Of a DNA stretch of 5,947 bases, positions 68 through 5,947 are shown in pieces. Source of the DNA: Paludibacter sp. (GTDB lineage Bacteria; Bacteroidota; Bacteroidia; Bacteroidales; Paludibacteraceae); assembly GCA_030655595.1 (NCBI GenBank), contig JAUSNQ010000098.1:1-5947 (forward strand). Direction: 5' to 3'. The notes beneath the pieces were generated by a model that made no database searches, had not been told where the DNA came from, and worked only from the letters and a program-made list of their open reading frames with translations. Position 1 is the first letter of the stretch, and each line of letters starts with the position of its first letter. A program made the position numbers and the translations under genes.

Positions 68-97
68 TTACCGTTTTTTTCTTAAACTTTCTCCTTT
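68..97 (-). pseudogene. istB: Severed 3' end of istB (KGESLRKKR-stop)
   Basis: Read on the minus strand, these bases encode K-G-E-S-L-R-K-K-R and a TAA stop at 68-70. IstB proteins commonly end in a basic tail of the type IELKGESxRKK, and the main istB piece in this window reaches IELKG at 3630 before entering foreign sequence. The two pieces join exactly: removing 93-3629 gives IELKG-ESLRKKR-stop, a 240-residue IstB. This is therefore the displaced end of the same gene and not a separate gene. It is too short to be expressed alone. Confidence 0.9.
93..97 (+). repeat. Left copy of the CCTTT direct repeat at the RIT boundary
   Basis: CCTTT here matches 3630-3634. On the minus strand it reads AAAGG, the Lys-Gly codons of istB that occur on both sides of the insertion. 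It is either a short target duplication or, more likely for tyrosine recombinases, the shared crossover sequence. At the left the sixth base is T (CCTTTT), at the right it is C (CCTTTC). Confidence 0.75.
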
Positions 98-124
98 TTT
101 ATGGCAAGGTTTGCATAAAAAAGG
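93..124. repeat. Left-end palindrome: 11-bp arms, 10-bp centre, probable recombination site
   Basis: CCTTTTTTATG (93-103) and CATAAAAAAGG (114-124) are perfect inverted arms around a 10-base centre, within which GCAA and TTGC (104-107 and 111-114) pair again with a one-base offset. Two core-like sites overlap here. One is the spacer CCTTTT (93-98) followed by the arm TTATGGCAA (99-107). Its mirror is the arm TTGCATAA (111-118), spacer AAAAGG (119-124) and arm TTATGACAA (125-133). Arms flanking a 6-base spacer are typical of tyrosine-recombinase core sites. The hairpin could also act as a transcription terminator, but its fit to the crossover repeat makes an attachment role more likely. Confidence 0.7.
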
Positions 125-148
125 TTATGACAACTCTTATATTATGTA
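120..148 (+). repeat. RIT left inverted repeat
   Basis: The first 20 bases (120-139) match the reverse complement of 3615-3634 perfectly. Two mismatches follow at 140-141, then seven more matches (TTATGTA, 142-148). The repeat contains GTTATGAC at 124-131, a motif that recurs at 3595-3602 and inverted at 3623-3630; it is a likely recombinase half-site. Confidence 0.9.
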
Positions 149-152
149 CATT

Positions 153-184
153 TTGCCAAAACATGAAAATTAAACTACTATAAT
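153..184 (+). promoter_or_regulatory. Possible promoter for the rit operon
   Basis: TATAAT at 179-184 is a perfect sigma-70-like -10 hexamer. TTGCCA at 153-158 could be a -35 box, but the spacing of 20 bases is longer than usual. If the host is a Bacteroidetes, its main promoters use a different -7 motif (TAnnTTTG), of which no clear copy is visible. The site lies just inside the left inverted repeat, so recombinase binding there could repress transcription; this is inference. Confidence 0.25.
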
Positions 185-188
185 ATAG

Positions 189-228
189 CACTTTCCACCT
201 TAACTATACATAAACACTTTCCATAAAC
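189..228 (+). repeat. Short direct repeats in the rit leader
   Basis: CACTTTCCA occurs at 189-197 and 215-223, 26 bases apart, and ATAAAC occurs at 210-215 and 223-228, 13 bases apart. They fall between the left inverted repeat and ritA. Possible roles are accessory recombinase binding sites or operators. The region is AT-rich, so the shorter repeat may be chance. Confidence 0.4.
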
Positions 229-239
229 GTTTTTATATA

Positions 240-251
240 AGCATATTGCCA
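240..251 (+). repeat. Left subterminal inverted repeat (AGCATATTGCCA)
   Basis: These 12 bases are the exact reverse complement of 3565-3576 near the other end. Similarity continues outside in gapped form (TTTATA upstream, GC.A downstream). The pair is distinct from the terminal inverted repeats and is a candidate second recombinase binding site. It lies only 17 bases before ritA, so it could also regulate the operon. Confidence 0.55.
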
Positions 252-268
252 GCGACAATAAAAACAAA

Positions 269-1510
269 ATGATTATGGAAATTAACAAATTAATTGAAAT
301 TAGTACGGCGTACTTGAAAAGTACGTCATACTCAACCAATCGAATCTACACTTATAACTGGTTGTGGAAATATGGCATACTTGCCTATATGCAATCATTG
401 GACGAAAGTGAGTATAGCATTGAGATTGGGAATGATTTTATACTAACATGCAATATTAATGGTAGTATAGCGAGTAAGCATCGTGATATGATTAAGAGTG
501 TAATAGTGCTTAATGATGTCATGACAACAGGGAAAATCCATGGTAGGCGTTATATGCCTATTAATTATCCTCTTGGTGGAGAAATAGGTGTTCATGCTCA
601 AGAGTTTATAGGACATCTTACCAATTTACGCAGGAACATCAAGACCGTTAAGGATTATAAGAAAAGACTCAGCATCTTCATTGATTACTTGGCAGAAAAA
701 GGAGTGCATTGTCCTGGCCAGATTGACGAAAACAACGTCCTTGCATTTATATCGACTTATACGTACGGTTGTTCAAAGAACATAGCAAGCGTAAAATGGT
801 TCCTCCGATTTATGAAAGAAGGACATATAATTGAAAAGGACTTTGGATATATGCTGAAAAATCAAAGCTGCAAGCTGCGAAGTGAACGTGAAAGGATACC
901 TTCTTTCTACTCCGAAAAAGAAGTGAAAAAAATAGAGCAGTCGGTTAGCAAAACAGATGGAGTCGGTAAAAGAGACTATGCAATGGTTTTATTAGCGTCG
1001 AGGCTCGGACTTCGCATATCTGACATCGCAGGTCTTGGTTTTAATAATATAGACTGGGATGCGAATCAAATAAAACTGATCCAATATAAAACAGGCAATC
1101 CCATAACGCTTCCATTACTGCCTATTATCGGTAACGCAATCATTGACTATCTCCGTTACGGACGAAAGAAATCTTCATCAGATAAAGTATTCCTGAGCTG
1201 CCGAGCACCGTACACAGCTATTACTAGCGGTGCTGTCCACTCGGCTATTATGAGTGCGTTCAAGACATCCGGAGTGGAAGTGGATAAAAGACATCATGGT
1301 GGTCATGCCCTGCGATTCAGTCTCGCCCAAAGGTTGTTGGAACTAAACACCCCTATGCCAATAATATCTGAAGCCTTGGGTCACCGAAACAGAGATGTTA
1401 CAAGGGAATATGTCAGGATAGATCTGCCTTTGCTTCAGAAATGTTCGCTCGACGTTCCGGCAATTGATGACAACTTTTACATGCAGAAAGGAGGATGCTT
1501 CTATGAATGA
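269..1510 (+). CDS. ritA: RIT tyrosine recombinase A
   Basis: This 413-residue DNA strand-exchange enzyme is expected to act with RitB and RitC on the element ends. It has the C-terminal catalytic fold of tyrosine recombinases: Arg249 in GLRISDI, Lys274 in QYKTG, His346 and Arg349 in HALR, His372 in LGH, and the nucleophile Tyr381 in EYVRID. Residues about 105-190 form the helical core-binding domain. The first 100 residues are extra compared with a XerC/D-sized enzyme and may be a further DNA-binding domain. The start at 269 has no clear Shine-Dalgarno; an in-frame ATG at 275 is an alternative. A 32-residue tail follows the catalytic Tyr, and its codons contain the ribosome binding site of ritB. 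Family assignment is firm; the A position follows from being first and longest. Confidence 0.92.
   Translation: MIMEINKLIEISTAYLKSTSYSTNRIYTYNWLWKYGILAYMQSLDESEYSIEIGNDFILTCNINGSIASKHRDMIKSVIVLNDVMTTGKIHGRRYMPINYPLGGEIGVHAQEFIGHLTNLRRNIKTVKDYKKRLSIFIDYLAEKGVHCPGQIDENNVLAFISTYTYGCSKNIASVKWFLRFMKEGHIIEKDFGYMLKNQSCKLRSERERIPSFYSEKEVKKIEQSVSKTDGVGKRDYAMVLLASRLGLRISDIAGLGFNNIDWDANQIKLIQYKTGNPITLPLLPIIGNAIIDYLRYGRKKSSSDKVFLSCRAPYTAITSGAVHSAIMSAFKTSGVEVDKRHHGGHALRFSLAQRLLELNTPMPIISEALGHRNRDVTREYVRIDLPLLQKCSLDVPAIDDNFYMQKGGCFYE
1487..1494 (+). promoter_or_regulatory. Strong ribosome binding site for ritB, inside ritA
   Basis: AAAGGAGG lies eight bases before the ATG at 1503 and fixes that codon as the ritB start in preference to the in-frame ATG at 1464. 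It is the only near-consensus Shine-Dalgarno seen ahead of a gene in the window. Confidence 0.8.
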
Positions 1511-2486
1511 TGTGTTTAAATACCATAGTGTCTTGGCTCCATACATGAACGGGCTGATAGCGATAAAAGAATCACAGGGTTTTAATACGATTTCAATGAA
1601 GTGGTTCTTCAAGGAGTTTGACTCTTTTGCAATAAATTACGGTCTGAAAAGGTCTATTATAACACAAGAGCTTGTTGACGCATGGCGAAAGTCACGTATC
1701 AATGATTGTGGCAGAACATTCTATGGAAAATGTTCCGCACTGGTGCAGCTGGCAAGATATATGTGTGAGCGTGGGGCGGATTCTTATATAATGAGACTGC
1801 CTAAGGTAATAAATGACAGGGGGTTCACACCATACATTTTCTCAGAAGATCAGATGCAGGCGATCTTTGAAAAATCCAATAGGCTGATACGTGAGAGCCA
1901 TCGTATAGATGACCCTATTATGGCCATACCGAGTTTGATAAGGCTTTTATATAGTACAGGTCTAAGAATAACCGAAGCTATATCGATCAGAAATGAGGAT
2001 CTTCATTTTGATCAGGGTTATATACATATCAGAGAATCCAAGAATGGTTCTGAACGGCTTGTTCCTGTATGTAATACTCTGAAACAATCACTAATGCAGT
2101 ATATCAAATACAGAAATATGCTACCATTAAAGGGATTACAAGAAGGTGTGCATCTTTTTTTTGTGAAGCTTGACGGAACAGAAGTATCTACATCATGCGC
2201 ATATAAGTGGTTCAGAAAAGTGTATACCAACTGTGGTATCCCATATAAAGGAGATCGCTTTGGACCACGCCTGCATGACCTTCGTCACAGCATGGCTGTC
2301 CATACGCTGGCAAAGTTGATAAGGGAAGGAATGGATGTATATGCGGCATTGCCATTACTGTCAGCATGTCTTGGTCACACACAATTGTCTTCTACAGAAC
2401 ATTATGTCAGACTTACTAACTGTGAATATCCAGCACTTTTGAAACAATGTTCTTCCCTCAATGACTTTATTTACCCAAAAGAATAA
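1503..2486 (+). CDS. ritB: RIT tyrosine recombinase B
   Basis: This is a 327-residue tyrosine recombinase, the middle member of the trio. The catalytic set is complete: Arg155 in STGLR, Lys180 in ESK, His258 and Arg261 in HDLRH, His292 in LGH, and nucleophile Tyr301 in EHYVRLT. The N-terminal 110 residues form the helical DNA-binding domain. The start at 1503 follows an AAAGGAGG site and overlaps the end of ritA by eight bases, so the two are probably translationally coupled. An upstream ATG at 1464 would add 13 residues but lacks a ribosome site. After the catalytic Tyr the protein ends with ALLKQCSSL, resembling LLQKCSLD at the same place in RitA; RitC lacks this. It should work with RitA and RitC at the element ends; which half-site it binds cannot be told. 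Confidence 0.92.
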   Translation: MNDVFKYHSVLAPYMNGLIAIKESQGFNTISMKWFFKEFDSFAINYGLKRSIITQELVDAWRKSRINDCGRTFYGKCSALVQLARYMCERGADSYIMRLPKVINDRGFTPYIFSEDQMQAIFEKSNRLIRESHRIDDPIMAIPSLIRLLYSTGLRITEAISIRNEDLHFDQGYIHIRESKNGSERLVPVCNTLKQSLMQYIKYRNMLPLKGLQEGVHLFFVKLDGTEVSTSCAYKWFRKVYTNCGIPYKGDRFGPRLHDLRHSMAVHTLAKLIREGMDVYAALPLLSACLGHTQLSSTEHYVRLTNCEYPALLKQCSSLNDFIYPKE

Positions 2487-2490
2487 TACA

Positions 2491-3525
2491 ATGAATACGA
2501 AAACTGATTTTGCAAGATATCTTAGCAGATATTTATCTTCATATTTGCCTTATGAGCGGAATGTAAGTCCCAACACTATTGCCTCATATCGGGATTCTTT
2601 TGTGCTGTTCATCAATTACATGAAAGATGAAAAACACATTAAGGTGGATAAAATAACCCTTGAGTACATGATCAAAGAAAATGTTGTAAGCTTCTTAAAC
2701 TGGTTGACTGAACAAAAGAGATGTAACATATCTACCCGCAATATCCGCTTGGCCGCTATACACTCATTTATATCCTATCTTCAATATGAGAAAATAGAAA
2801 AACTTAATGAGTGGCAGAGCATCTTGTCGATAAAGACCATGAAGAAAGAATCAAATGCTCCAAATTATCTGACAGTTGACGGCATTAAACTCTTATTGGC
2901 ACAGCCTGACATAGAAGACTATTGCGGTTTGAGACATCTGGTCATACTTGCACTAATGTATGATACAGGATGCCGTGTACAGGAACTGATAGATCTGACG
3001 GTTGACTCTCTTAAGATACAAACAGAACCATATACCATACGTATATATGGTAAAGGCAGGAAAACAAGAATAGTACCAATGGTTCGTAACCAAATAGTTT
3101 TCTTGCGAAAGTATATGGATAGATACGGACTTAATGAGAACAAGTGTCTAAGTCATTCTCTGTTCTTCAACAACAGAGGTGAAAAGATAACCAGAGCTGG
3201 AGTTACTTACATTTTGAAGAAATACGCTGACATGGCGAGACAAACAACTCCATCTCTAATCCCTGAAAGAATCAGTTGCCACTCCTTAAGACACAGCAAA
3301 GCTATGCATTTACTTCAAGCAGGCGTCAATCTAATATGGATAAGGGATCTACTTGGACATACAACTATACAGACCACAGAGGTCTATGCAAGGGCAGACT
3401 CAAAACAAAAAAGAGTAGCACTTGAAAGTGCGTATATGGATATGCTGCCCGATAAAACTAAGGATGGTGAGTGGCAGAAGAATCAGACGCTTCTTGACTG
3501 GCTGAAAGGACTCCAAAAGAAGTAG
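2491..3525 (+). CDS. ritC: RIT tyrosine recombinase C
   Basis: This is a 344-residue tyrosine recombinase, third of the trio and the most XerC/D-like. An N-terminal core-binding domain (about 5-105, with RNVSPNTIASYRDSF) precedes the catalytic domain: Arg162 in TGCRVQEL, Lys188 in YGKGRKTR, His264 and Arg267 in HSLRH, His290 in LGH, and nucleophile Tyr299 in TEVYAR. The start at 2491 is chosen because MNTKTDFARYL suits the family's N-terminus and lies four bases after the ritB stop. An in-frame ATG at 2461 would give 354 residues and a 26-base overlap with ritB; neither start has a good ribosome site, so coupling to ritB translation is likely. The stop at 3523-3525 leaves about 80 bases before istB ends convergently. 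Confidence 0.92.
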   Translation: MNTKTDFARYLSRYLSSYLPYERNVSPNTIASYRDSFVLFINYMKDEKHIKVDKITLEYMIKENVVSFLNWLTEQKRCNISTRNIRLAAIHSFISYLQYEKIEKLNEWQSILSIKTMKKESNAPNYLTVDGIKLLLAQPDIEDYCGLRHLVILALMYDTGCRVQELIDLTVDSLKIQTEPYTIRIYGKGRKTRIVPMVRNQIVFLRKYMDRYGLNENKCLSHSLFFNNRGEKITRAGVTYILKKYADMARQTTPSLIPERISCHSLRHSKAMHLLQAGVNLIWIRDLLGHTTIQTTEVYARADSKQKRVALESAYMDMLPDKTKDGEWQKNQTLLDWLKGLQKK

Positions 3526-3564
3526 CATCTCTAATATTATGTGAAGTTTAACAGTAAAGTTGCT

Positions 3565-3576
3565 TGGCAATATGCT
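3565..3576 (-). repeat. Right subterminal inverted repeat (TGGCAATATGCT)
   Basis: This is the exact reverse complement of 240-251. It lies in the 80-base stretch after ritC, which holds no gene, and is 58 bases from the right RIT boundary, against about 120 bases for its partner at the left. It is probably a recombinase accessory site. Confidence 0.55.
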
Positions 3577-3589
3577 ATAAATCAAGTGA

Positions 3590-3618
3590 CTTATGTTATG
3601 ACGTTTACATAACGTAAG
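3590..3618. repeat. Right-end palindrome: 11-bp arms, 7-bp centre
   Basis: CTTATGTTATG (3590-3600) and CATAACGTAAG (3608-3618) pair at 10 of 11 positions around ACGTTTA. The left arm includes GTTATGAC (3595-3602), the same motif found in both terminal repeats. The right arm is part of the terminal inverted repeat. Arm and spacer sizes resemble a tyrosine-recombinase site, so this may be an extra binding site specific to the right end. Confidence 0.55.
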
Positions 3619-4327
3619 AGTTGTCATAACCTTTCAATTCAATTTTATATGCTGTATGGATTAATCTGTCGAGTATAGCATCAGCAATAGTAGCTTCTGC
3701 AAAGACATCATACCATTGCCCAAAGGGTATTTGACTGGCCATGATTGTAGCTTTGATTCCGTGTCTGTCTTCAATTATCTCCATCATATCCAACAATTGC
3801 TGTCCCTCCAGATGCATCAATCCAAAATCGTCGAGTATTAACACCTCAGTTTTAGCAATTTTATCTAAGAACTTGATGTGCGTACCTTCAAGTCTTGCAA
3901 TGCGCAGTTTGGCAATCAGTTTCTGTGTATTATAATAAGCTACACTTTTACCCTGATAGCAAGCCTGATGACCTAATGCTGAAGCCAGAAAACTTTTGCC
4001 GGAACCGGAAGATCCGGTAATCAGTACCGGTGCACCTTTGTGGATGTAATTTCCGGATTTCAGTTCATCAAGCATTGTTTTGTCAAGATTTCGGACAGAT
4101 GAGCAGATGACTTCCTCCATCGTAGCCTGATATCTGAAGTGAGCATTTTTAATCAACCGCTCAAATCGTTTGTTGGACTTCTCAAGGATTTCAGCCTGTA
4201 ATAAAAGCGTTAATCCATCATTGACAGATAGCTCATTTAGTTGTCGGCTTTGCTCAAGTTCTCTCCAGGCCTGAGCCATTCCGTGTAAACGAAGGCTCTG
4301 CATTTGTGATTCAATTTGTGTAATCAT
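3605..4327 (-). CDS. istB: IS21 transposition helper ATPase IstB, C-terminus replaced by RIT sequence
   Basis: IstB is the AAA+ ATPase that oligomerises on DNA and directs the IstA transposase to its target. Visible motifs are Walker A GSSGSGKS (residues 105-112), Walker B LILDDFG (164-169, acidic residues 166-167), sensor-like ASQIP (197-201) and the arginine-containing ILDRLIHTAYKIELKG (218-233). The N-terminal 90 residues are the helical IstA-interaction region. Native sequence ends at G233, base 3630; the last seven residues YDNSYVM come from the RIT inverted repeat and replace the native ESLRKKR found at 68-97. The hybrid and reconstructed proteins are both 240 residues, but the basic tail is lost, so activity is uncertain. 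The start lies 14 bases after istA with no Shine-Dalgarno. Confidence 0.9.
   Translation of the reverse strand: MITQIESQMQSLRLHGMAQAWRELEQSRQLNELSVNDGLTLLLQAEILEKSNKRFERLIKNAHFRYQATMEEVICSSVRNLDKTMLDELKSGNYIHKGAPVLITGSSGSGKSFLASALGHQACYQGKSVAYYNTQKLIAKLRIARLEGTHIKFLDKIAKTEVLILDDFGLMHLEGQQLLDMMEIIEDRHGIKATIMASQIPFGQWYDVFAEATIADAILDRLIHTAYKIELKGYDNSYVM
3606..3634 (-). repeat. RIT right inverted repeat
   Basis: This is the partner of 120-148, with 27 of 29 positions matching and the outer 20 perfect. It contains the core arm TTGTCATAA (3621-3629) directly followed by the crossover sequence CCTTTC (3630-3635). It also encodes the foreign tail of the hybrid IstB, whose stop codon is at 3605-3607. 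Confidence 0.9.
3630..3634 (+). repeat. Right copy of the CCTTT direct repeat at the RIT boundary
   Basis: This matches 93-97. Here the repeat abuts istB sequence directly (CAATTCAATT follows), whereas at the left it is followed by the palindrome, so the joining DNA between the two inverted repeats stayed on the left side. Confidence 0.75.
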
Positions 4328-4341
4328 ATGAATAAAGGGTT

Positions 4342-5928
4342 TTAAAAGTTTATTTCTAATTGCGATTTAAAATATTGAGAACCAAGTATATTTTTGTGTT
4401 CAGGTAATGGTTTGGTTGTTTGCAAAACCATATCTGATATTGTTTTTCTGGTAATAACATTGCTAACAAAACGGTATGAATACTGTTCTTCTCCCAGAGC
4501 CAGATGACATGCTTTCTCAAAAATATCATGCGCTGTTTTACGTTGCAGTTGCAGCATCCCTTCACAGGTCCTGTAAAGTTGTTCGGGAGGACGTGAGGTT
4601 TGATTGAACATACGCTCAAACAACTGCCCTAACACCTCAGTTTTTCCTTTAGCCAACTCAATGTAATAATGGGGGCTTCTGTCCAGATAGTGTTGATGAG
4701 TGGAGCATAAATGCCCCTTGACGGTGGTATATGCACCCTGTGTGAGAGAGCGAATATGTATTATAGGCTCCTGATGTGGGGCAAAGATCGATACCAGTGT
4801 TTGTGTATAGATTACTTTTACCTTCGATCCAATCCATTGATAAGGCACACTGTAATAATGTTTATCCCGCGCCAGATAGATATGGTTATTTTTAGCTACC
4901 TTCAACTCCGTGTAATGTTTGATTTGAAAAACCATATCAGGTAAAGGTTTCAAACAGGGTTGTTCTATTGACAGGAAACGTTCCTCACGTGTAAAAGGAT
5001 GCTGTTGCATGCGTGTTTGGTTGTGATCCAATACTTTTTCAGTGATGGCCTGATTGAGTTCACCCAATGAATGAAAGACCTGTTTTCGAAGTTTGGCATA
5101 TACCCGATGATATATCAACTTTACTTGATTCTCCACTAAAGCCTTGTCTTTGGGTTTCTTTACCCTGGTGGGTACAACAGTAAATCCATAATGGTTTCCC
5201 ATATCCTCAAGAACCTGATTGATACGTGGCTCATAGCGGTTGGAAGTTATAACAGCGGATTTAAGATTATCAGGGATGAGTAGTGAGGGGACACCACCGA
5301 GTTGACGCAGGCAACATGCAAGAGCATAAATAAAATCTTCGGTTGACTGTGAGCGGACTGCTATGGCAAAGGCATAATCGGTATGCTGAAGACAAGCTAC
5401 AAATACCTGACATTGTATAATCTCACCGGTGTTGATATCCACATAATAAAGCGTATCTCCAGCAAAATCAACCAATAGGCGCTCAGCTGGCACACTACTG
5501 AGCACCATGCTTGGGTTACGGGCAGTTTGATGTTGGGTCAGATGAAAACAGAACTGGCTGTAACGATAACCATTGGGATGTTCTGAGAGATATTCCTGCC
5601 ACAAAGCATGACGGGTCAGATGGTTTTTTGGATTCTCCAATTCCCGGATATAACCATCCATCAATCGTTTAATATCTTCAAAACGACTATCACTGTACGC
5701 CGGGTTTCCTGCATGAAAGCGTGTTTCCAAAACCGGATCATCCAAAACCAGCAGTTGATCAATGCTAAAAGGCATTTTTTCTAGTTTGGCGATGTAGGAC
5801 TTGACCGTGTTGCGTGCAAGACCTGTTAAGCGAACAATGGTTTTTATTCCTTTGCCCGATTTGAATAATTGAAGCATTTGTTTGATTTTCAAATAGGTTT
5901 TGCCTGTTCCGGTAGGTCCGTTAATCAC
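4342..5928 (-). CDS. istA: IS21 transposase IstA, N-terminus fused to a P-loop segment
   Basis: IstA is the DDE transposase that cuts and joins IS21 ends with help from IstB. Counting from the GTG at 5926-5928, a helix-turn-helix lies at about residues 20-50 (GIKTIVRLTGLARNTVKSYI). The rve-type catalytic domain shows Asp154 (LVDFAGD), Asp220 (IPDNLKSAV) and Glu266 (ALVENQV), and a C-terminal region runs to SQLEINF. The family-like part begins near LKIKQMLQLF; its Leu is a TTG at 5890-5892, giving 516 residues, close to normal IstA length. The preceding residues INGPTGTGKTY are a Walker A motif not expected in IstA, and the frame stays open to base 5947 (RNGQTIVINGPTGTGKT). The true start is therefore uncertain: TTG at 5892, or a fused start outside the window. 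Confidence 0.88.
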   Translation of the reverse strand: MINGPTGTGKTYLKIKQMLQLFKSGKGIKTIVRLTGLARNTVKSYIAKLEKMPFSIDQLLVLDDPVLETRFHAGNPAYSDSRFEDIKRLMDGYIRELENPKNHLTRHALWQEYLSEHPNGYRYSQFCFHLTQHQTARNPSMVLSSVPAERLLVDFAGDTLYYVDINTGEIIQCQVFVACLQHTDYAFAIAVRSQSTEDFIYALACCLRQLGGVPSLLIPDNLKSAVITSNRYEPRINQVLEDMGNHYGFTVVPTRVKKPKDKALVENQVKLIYHRVYAKLRKQVFHSLGELNQAITEKVLDHNQTRMQQHPFTREERFLSIEQPCLKPLPDMVFQIKHYTELKVAKNNHIYLARDKHYYSVPYQWIGSKVKVIYTQTLVSIFAPHQEPIIHIRSLTQGAYTTVKGHLCSTHQHYLDRSPHYYIELAKGKTEVLGQLFERMFNQTSRPPEQLYRTCEGMLQLQRKTAHDIFEKACHLALGEEQYSYRFVSNVITRKTISDMVLQTTKPLPEHKNILGSQYFKSQLEINF

Positions 5929-5947
5929 TATTGTTTGTCCATTCCGC
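5893..5947 (-). pseudogene. Partial P-loop ATPase coding segment joined in frame to istA
   Basis: The minus strand here encodes RNGQTIVINGPTGTGKTY: a hydrophobic beta strand followed by a textbook Walker A motif (GPTGTGKT, bases 5896-5919). It continues beyond the window. Beta-strand-plus-P-loop spacing is too well formed to be chance. IstB/DnaC-like ATPases often have TGTGKTYL at this point, so it may be a piece of another istB, but the fragment is too short to exclude other P-loop families. No stop codon or IS21 end separates it from istA. Confidence 0.5.

Follow-up and report, generated by a model that had tools for sequence, protein, structure and literature searches.

The window, that is, the whole stretch of 5,947 nucleotides analysed here, contains an RIT ("recombinase in trio") element of 3,537 bp (93–3629) inside an IS21 insertion sequence, at the C-terminus of IstB. 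The host IS21, for which a plasmid search gave no near match, has its genes on the minus strand. Its transposase gene istA (4342–5946; NF033546, 4.8e-63) is open at the window end, and the N-terminal half of the interrupted istB, hereafter U, lies at 3605–4327 (PF01695, 2.1e-57, profile positions 2–227 of 238). The C-terminal half, hereafter D, encodes GESLRKKR and a stop codon and is found together with the IS21 end region at 1–92, also on the minus strand. In the interrupted form the istB frame enters the element, ending ...IELKGYDNSYVM, and the last IstB residues ESLRKKR are replaced by the element-encoded YDNSYVM (3605–3636). When the element is excised in silico by joining 92 to 3630, the IstB frame is restored and ends in IELKGESLRKKR and a stop codon (also given as ...YKIELKGESLRKKR and stop).

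The element contains three adjacent tyrosine recombinase genes on the plus strand, all identified from open reading frames with PF00589: ritA (275–1510, 1.5e-22, with another in-frame ATG at 269), ritB (1503–2486, 2.9e-23) and ritC (2491–3525, 3.2e-29, with another in-frame ATG at 2461). The genes ritA and ritB overlap by 8 bp (1503–1510), and the spacing of ritB and ritC depends on whether 2461 or 2491 is the start. The catalytic motif of tyrosine recombinases is R-K-HxxR-H-Y. The corresponding RitA residues R247, K272, H344, R347, H370 and Y379 are invariant in 15 aligned proteins; the alignment covers RitA only, and the catalytic residues of RitB and RitC were read by eye from the translations. 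RIT elements have been described from Cupriavidus metallidurans CH34 and from plasmid pHG1, and the parts of these accounts available to us give three adjacent recombinase genes, a length of ca. 3.5 kb, an inverted repeat of 28–29 bp with a palindrome, and insertion into transposase genes (PMC2864759, PMC3414803). Short gene overlaps of 4–8 bp are another RIT feature. The length of 3,537 bp, a 29-nt inverted repeat and a palindrome at 99–118 match these features. RitA is 27.4% identical over 95% to a recombinase of the pHG1 three-gene set, where the three genes are likewise adjacent.

The terminal inverted repeats (TIRs) were found by a repeat search, with 93% identity over 29 nt. The left TIR occupies 120–148 (plus strand) with an outer motif TTATGACAAC at 125–134, and the right TIR occupies 3606–3634 (minus strand) with an outer motif GTTGTCATAA at 3620–3629. 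At the right end, a 6-bp spacer CCTTTC (3630–3635, plus strand) leads from the TIR to the U half. The left end is longer. Here the D half is followed by the 6-bp spacer CCTTTT (93–98, plus strand), whose bases 93–97 repeat 3630–3634, then by a 20-bp palindromic module TTATGGCAAGGTTTGCATAA at 99–118, called P, which has an equivalent in relatives, and then by a spacer AAAAGG (119–124, plus strand) at the boundary of P and TIR.

The original prediction held that a circle formed through the CCTTT repeats would have a perfect palindrome with 26-bp arms at its junction, and this palindrome is real. Joining 3629 to 93 gives TAAGAGTTGTCATAA+CCTTTTTTATG (26 bases), the centre GCAAGGTTTG, and CATAAAAAAGGTTATGACAACTCTTA (114–139), with 26 of 26 bases mirrored, while shuffling the 400-nt junction 200 times by mononucleotide gave longest perfect arms of at most 12 and of 6.8 on average (loop up to 20). 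Beyond the arms there are two mismatches and then seven matches, as had also been claimed, and neither end alone has the symmetry: the longest perfect arm in the linear window is 11, which is the 93–103/114–124 hairpin alone. The predicted fold of one junction strand, 62 nt long, has a free energy of -27.0 kcal/mol, with a z-score of -12.5 relative to 200 dinucleotide shuffles. Of the 26 arm bases, 15 are supplied by the TIR, whose two copies would be juxtaposed by any circularisation; the part specific to this junction is the left-end hairpin CCTTTT-TTATGGCAAGGTTTGCATAA-AAAAGG, which extends the TIR in exact register. The 10-base centre of the original prediction is present, but it is really the imperfect middle of the 20-bp module, with 7 of 10 pairs mirrored; in most parsed relatives the module is more symmetric than in the window. 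The crossover at CCTTT is supported independently of the palindrome by the restoration of the IstB C-terminus upon removal of 93–3629, and the relatives share its 6-bp register.

Relatives were collected with RitA. Protein databases gave 1,676 homologues at E up to 1e-3, of which the best 120 were listed, and GTDB genomes gave 123 confirmed homologues, of which the best 80 were kept; by record title these are mostly from Bacteroidota, plus Bacillota, Pseudomonadota and others. Nine loci from viral contigs, found by protein, and two plasmid regions were added. Out of 80 loci, 51 entered the first end search, 39 were displayed together with the window, and 30 plus the window were parsed. The parser placed P at one end in 19 of these 31, at both ends in 1 and at neither in 11, and L067 and L075 (with a poorly symmetric, eye-read P) were reassigned by eye to the one-end class. 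The ends of L058, L076, L091, L092, L095 and L149 were read by eye; 20 extra loci had been tried, of which 13 had no readable ends, one (L067) was already parsed and six were new. In total, 37 elements including the window had readable ends; P lies outside the TIR at one end in 27 of them, at both ends in one (L039), and at neither in nine (L012, L013, L017, L022, L028, L030, L057, L059 and L060).

In these relatives P is a palindrome of 19–20 bp, separated from the TIR by a 6-bp spacer. It takes the form TTATG...CATAA or TTATC...GATAA, with other forms in proteobacteria. As an example, the three-recombinase element of pHG1 in Cupriavidus necator has the same layout, with P AAATGTGCTGCAGCACATTT and all three spacers reading GCGCTA; pHG1 is the plasmid named as rich in RITs in the available part of PMC3414803. 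Among the 26 one-end elements that were tabulated, P is on the left in 13 and on the right in 13 (L067 was omitted from the table, and its inclusion would give 14 left and 13 right), and two elements from one genome record, L034 and L035, have it on opposite sides. The expectation that homologues would keep the left 26 bases therefore fails as worded, with the module on the right in 13 of 26 and varying in sequence. A varying sequence with a persisting palindromic form is what a symmetric site predicts, and such a site is well supported. The idea of a symmetric attachment site is supported by the even split of P, but the junction looks more like two complete inverted cores with a common 20-bp centre, of which one would be used per insertion.

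The spacers were compared in the same 26 insertions, with s standing for the plain-end spacer, s' for the one by the target at the P end, and s2 for the one between P and TIR. The mean agreement between s and s' is 4.92 of 6 positions, and the two are identical in 14 of 26 and agree at five or more positions in 18 of 26; shuffled pairings had a mean of 1.83, and none of 10,000 was as high as the observed value. Mismatches by position number 8, 5, 5, 7, 2 and 1. Of the 12 rows with unequal s and s', 8 have an s2 identical to one or the other. Four elements (L007, L016, L026 and L091) agree at only 2 of 6 positions, which counts against a shared register. These counts are not independent, because there are related copies among the rows (L031/L069, L034/L035), and the spacer of L015 was corrected by hand. 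The observed agreements and mismatches would result if a 6-bp staggered exchange took place with a target of partly different sequence and was followed by replication.

The two ends also differ in which half of the target they face. By Pfam, plain ends adjoin N-terminal halves in 21 of 21 tested (the window and 20 relatives), and of ten P ends tested, eight adjoin C-terminal halves, while L055 and L009 are without a hit. In each family the two halves meet at a single residue: for IS66 transposases at 154 and 154, for AbiEii, with the two halves taken separately, with U ending at 33–34 and D beginning at 34–35, and for DUF6876 at 56 and 70, while U ends at 226–227 in IstB and at 164–165 in DDE_Tnp_1. 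Most targets in this sample are transposition genes or genes for AbiEii nucleotidyltransferases. An exception is found in genome G011, where the P ends of L111 and L120 face a gene that, by eye, reads into P, so the rule concerns U and D as DNA half-sites and not simply N- and C-termini. Codons of P-loop motifs also appear by eye as targets in genome G017, where L059 has KGGVGK at either flank and L112, whose flank belongs to the PAPS reductase family by Pfam, has GGKDST beside P. L142 (G357) has a P end at ALGNQA within an istB-like gene, a position distant from the C-terminal one seen in the window.

Taken together, we consider the following account of RIT excision and integration to be probable as a whole. 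The three tyrosine recombinases would excise 93–3629 through a 6-bp staggered exchange (at CCTTTT here) into a circle, whose junction TIR/s1/P/s2/TIR would hold two complete inverted cores of about 10-6-10 bp sharing the 20-bp P. The predicted cores in the window are GTTGTCATAA-CCTTTT-TTATGGCAAG and GTTTGCATAA-AAAAGG-TTATGACAAC, either of which should be usable. Integration at a specific codon of the target gene would use one of these two equivalent cores, leaving P at one end with the second core still intact (109–134 in the window) and a bare TIR at the other. Each core would join an "alpha" half (target U or a P arm) to a "beta" half (target D or TIR), each presumably bound by particular members of the trio. 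The intact P/TIR core of an integrated copy could then, presumably as double-stranded DNA, react with a second target, and the products would be an element flanked by U halves on both sides and a lone P flanked by D halves on both sides; the order of these events is one that we infer from the sequences. A bolder form of the proposal is that the twin inverted cores do react with two targets and that half-sites are interchangeable (U or P with D or TIR), giving insertion in both orientations, head-to-head placement of two target-gene copies on either side of the element, and 20-bp lone-P scars that are still substrates. For this form we find the case evenly balanced.

Elements between two U halves do exist. 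Among the nine P-less elements, four have N-terminal halves of one Pfam family at both flanks: topoisomerase in L028 (to 337 and 336 of 411), AbiEii in L030 (33 and 33) and L057 (34 and 34), and Y1 transposase in L060 (71 and 71). L013, L017 and L059 have the same look by eye or by inverted repeats in their flanks, and L012 and L022 have one identified half apiece. When 393 Bacteroidales genomes were searched with a P pattern, 8 places matched, spread over 6 genomes, and none matched a reversed control. Five of these places have a TIR beside P (L140, L146, L141, L142 and L147), L145 could not be classified, and two (L143 in G018 and L144 in G310) consist of a lone P flanked on both sides by IstB-type C-terminal halves, which is expected if both cores react. 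The left flank of L144 resembles the tails of intact istB genes (87–90% over 50–54 nt) and has no near match in plasmids, and its right flank resembles the terminal portion of an intact IstB-type gene, ...HFHGPSYRMENRQTIF (86% over 42 nt). For L143, the right flank resembles an istB tail (85% over 53 nt), and the left flank, ca. 200 nt from the contig end, reads KGASLRQKK by eye only; 10 plasmid records matched part of this flank, and in the 8 rows listed there was no annotated feature beneath. G018 is also the genome of L003 and is titled Parabacteroides distasonis An863. Three genomes with both-U elements, G001, G002 (among the places listed for it) and G003, yielded no recognisable lone P, an AbiEii-type lone-P pattern gave no match in 395 genomes, and a stricter P pattern matched, among 395 genomes, only the centre genome at its known copy. 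Another P pattern was unspecific: it matched 17 places, in 9 of 12 genomes, and its reversed control matched 12, and only readable contexts were used from it. L100 and L101 were rejected as lone P on reading, and so was G001:C82, a terminator-like hairpin. In L126 (G012, ca. 1066) a P-like palindrome adjoins an IS4-type C-terminal half, its other side lacks a TIR, and it is possibly a third lone P. In L127 (G016, ca. 1009) a P-like palindrome stands between an istB tail (KGKYMRQHKKK) and a second TTATG-type motif, and is perhaps a decayed lone P.

Much of this evidence also bears on other explanations. That the palindrome is a chance hairpin, or a host terminator, beside an ordinary inverted repeat gains something from the 15 of 26 arm bases that are the inverted repeat itself, but an equivalent module recurs at the same 6-bp spacing in 27 of 37 readable elements, including one on a betaproteobacterial plasmid; we find this explanation highly improbable and have rejected it. 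A single-stranded substrate is a more serious candidate. In integron attC sites and CTXphi, a palindromic site is left almost whole at one end after integration, and the substrates are single-strand hairpins. By analogy, one strand of the RIT junction would fold into a 62-nt hairpin whose stem forms a single double-stranded core, one strand would be exchanged, and the whole palindrome would stay at one end. The very stable fold of the junction strand, the pairing of s1 with s2 and the palindrome at one end, which is also how attC behaves, all agree with this. Alone, however, it gives neither both-U elements nor lone P, since those need a reaction at the P/TIR boundary of an integrated copy, and P lies equally on either side with no strand choice apparent. 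Two double-stranded cores appear to fit the RIT sequences better, and we hold the single-strand route to be unlikely.

The remaining explanation is simple insertion with a single core ever used, after which homologous recombination between oppositely oriented copies would yield both-U and both-P elements, with lone P arising by later deletion. L039, which has P at both ends and two C-terminal IS66 halves, has just the structure expected of such recombination, and more than one copy is present in several genomes. But this route predicts both-U and both-P elements in equal number, and four of the former by Pfam (seven with those read by eye) are seen against one of the latter. It also needs an extra deletion for lone P, and the split of 13 left and 13 right would still require a symmetric site. 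We regard it as rather doubtful, slightly less so than the single-strand route, and retain the account with two cores as the preferred reading.

The circle itself was looked for in assembled sequence, and no circle was seen. A scan for TIR/P/TIR in the loci collected up to then gave one match, in L092, which was judged to be chance on reading. Five contigs of 3,494–3,512 bp with ends at or near the spacers (L001, L003, L018, L019 and L032) resemble circles. They are not taken as evidence: the element contig of G018 can be placed between two contigs that belong to an ordinary insertion.

Several known systems resemble this one in part. GInts also have three recombinases, with 6-nt staggered cuts, circular intermediates and attachment-site variants after excision in the available part of PMC5385486, which also states that they need a fourth gene, ginD, whereas here ritC ends only ca. 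80 bp short of the right TIR. No plus-strand ORF of at least 60 amino acids lies in that interval. The strand-biased circularizing integrative elements (SE) and Tn554 share the several recombinases and the imperfect terminal inverted repeats, but SE carry intA, CDS2, intB and CDS4, as far as the available text of PMC10214605 goes, while the present element has three recombinase genes only. Tn554 has TnpC, whereas the third gene here is a recombinase (PF00589). Gene content thus excludes all three identities. In Tn916 the coupling sequences, i.e., spacers, may differ between element and target and then segregate; Tn916, however, has one core per end, without a shared central palindrome.

RIT elements are a known family, and the twin-core mechanism is a proposal of the present analysis. 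The RIT section of PMC3414803 and the available part of PMC2864759 do not describe the crossover, the one-sided P or the twin core, and a twin-core site is likewise undescribed in the available parts of PMC10214605, PMC8138268 and PMC5385486; Ricker et al. 2013 (Plasmid 70:226) lies outside this comparison. The 2012 survey, in the part available, noted that RIT ends can be matched to known recombinase sites only with difficulty, and left unexplained how three recombinases cut four strands (PMC3414803). A symmetric twin-core site, if true, would give exact element boundaries for annotation, would explain insertion in both orientations, and would predict inversions between target copies as well as tiny palindromic scars. 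The question of the three recombinases would also become testable site by site.

Some observations concern the wider set of relatives. RitA matched 25 phage records, all at less than 60% identity. Nine viral contigs contain the 17-mer GGTTATGACAACTCTTA, and in one viral contig (L093, 4621–8505) a region with the recombinase trio lies between long inverted repeats (score 109.6). The element L035 (4841–8200) is ca. 140 bp shorter between its TIRs than L034 from the same genome, probably through an internal deletion.
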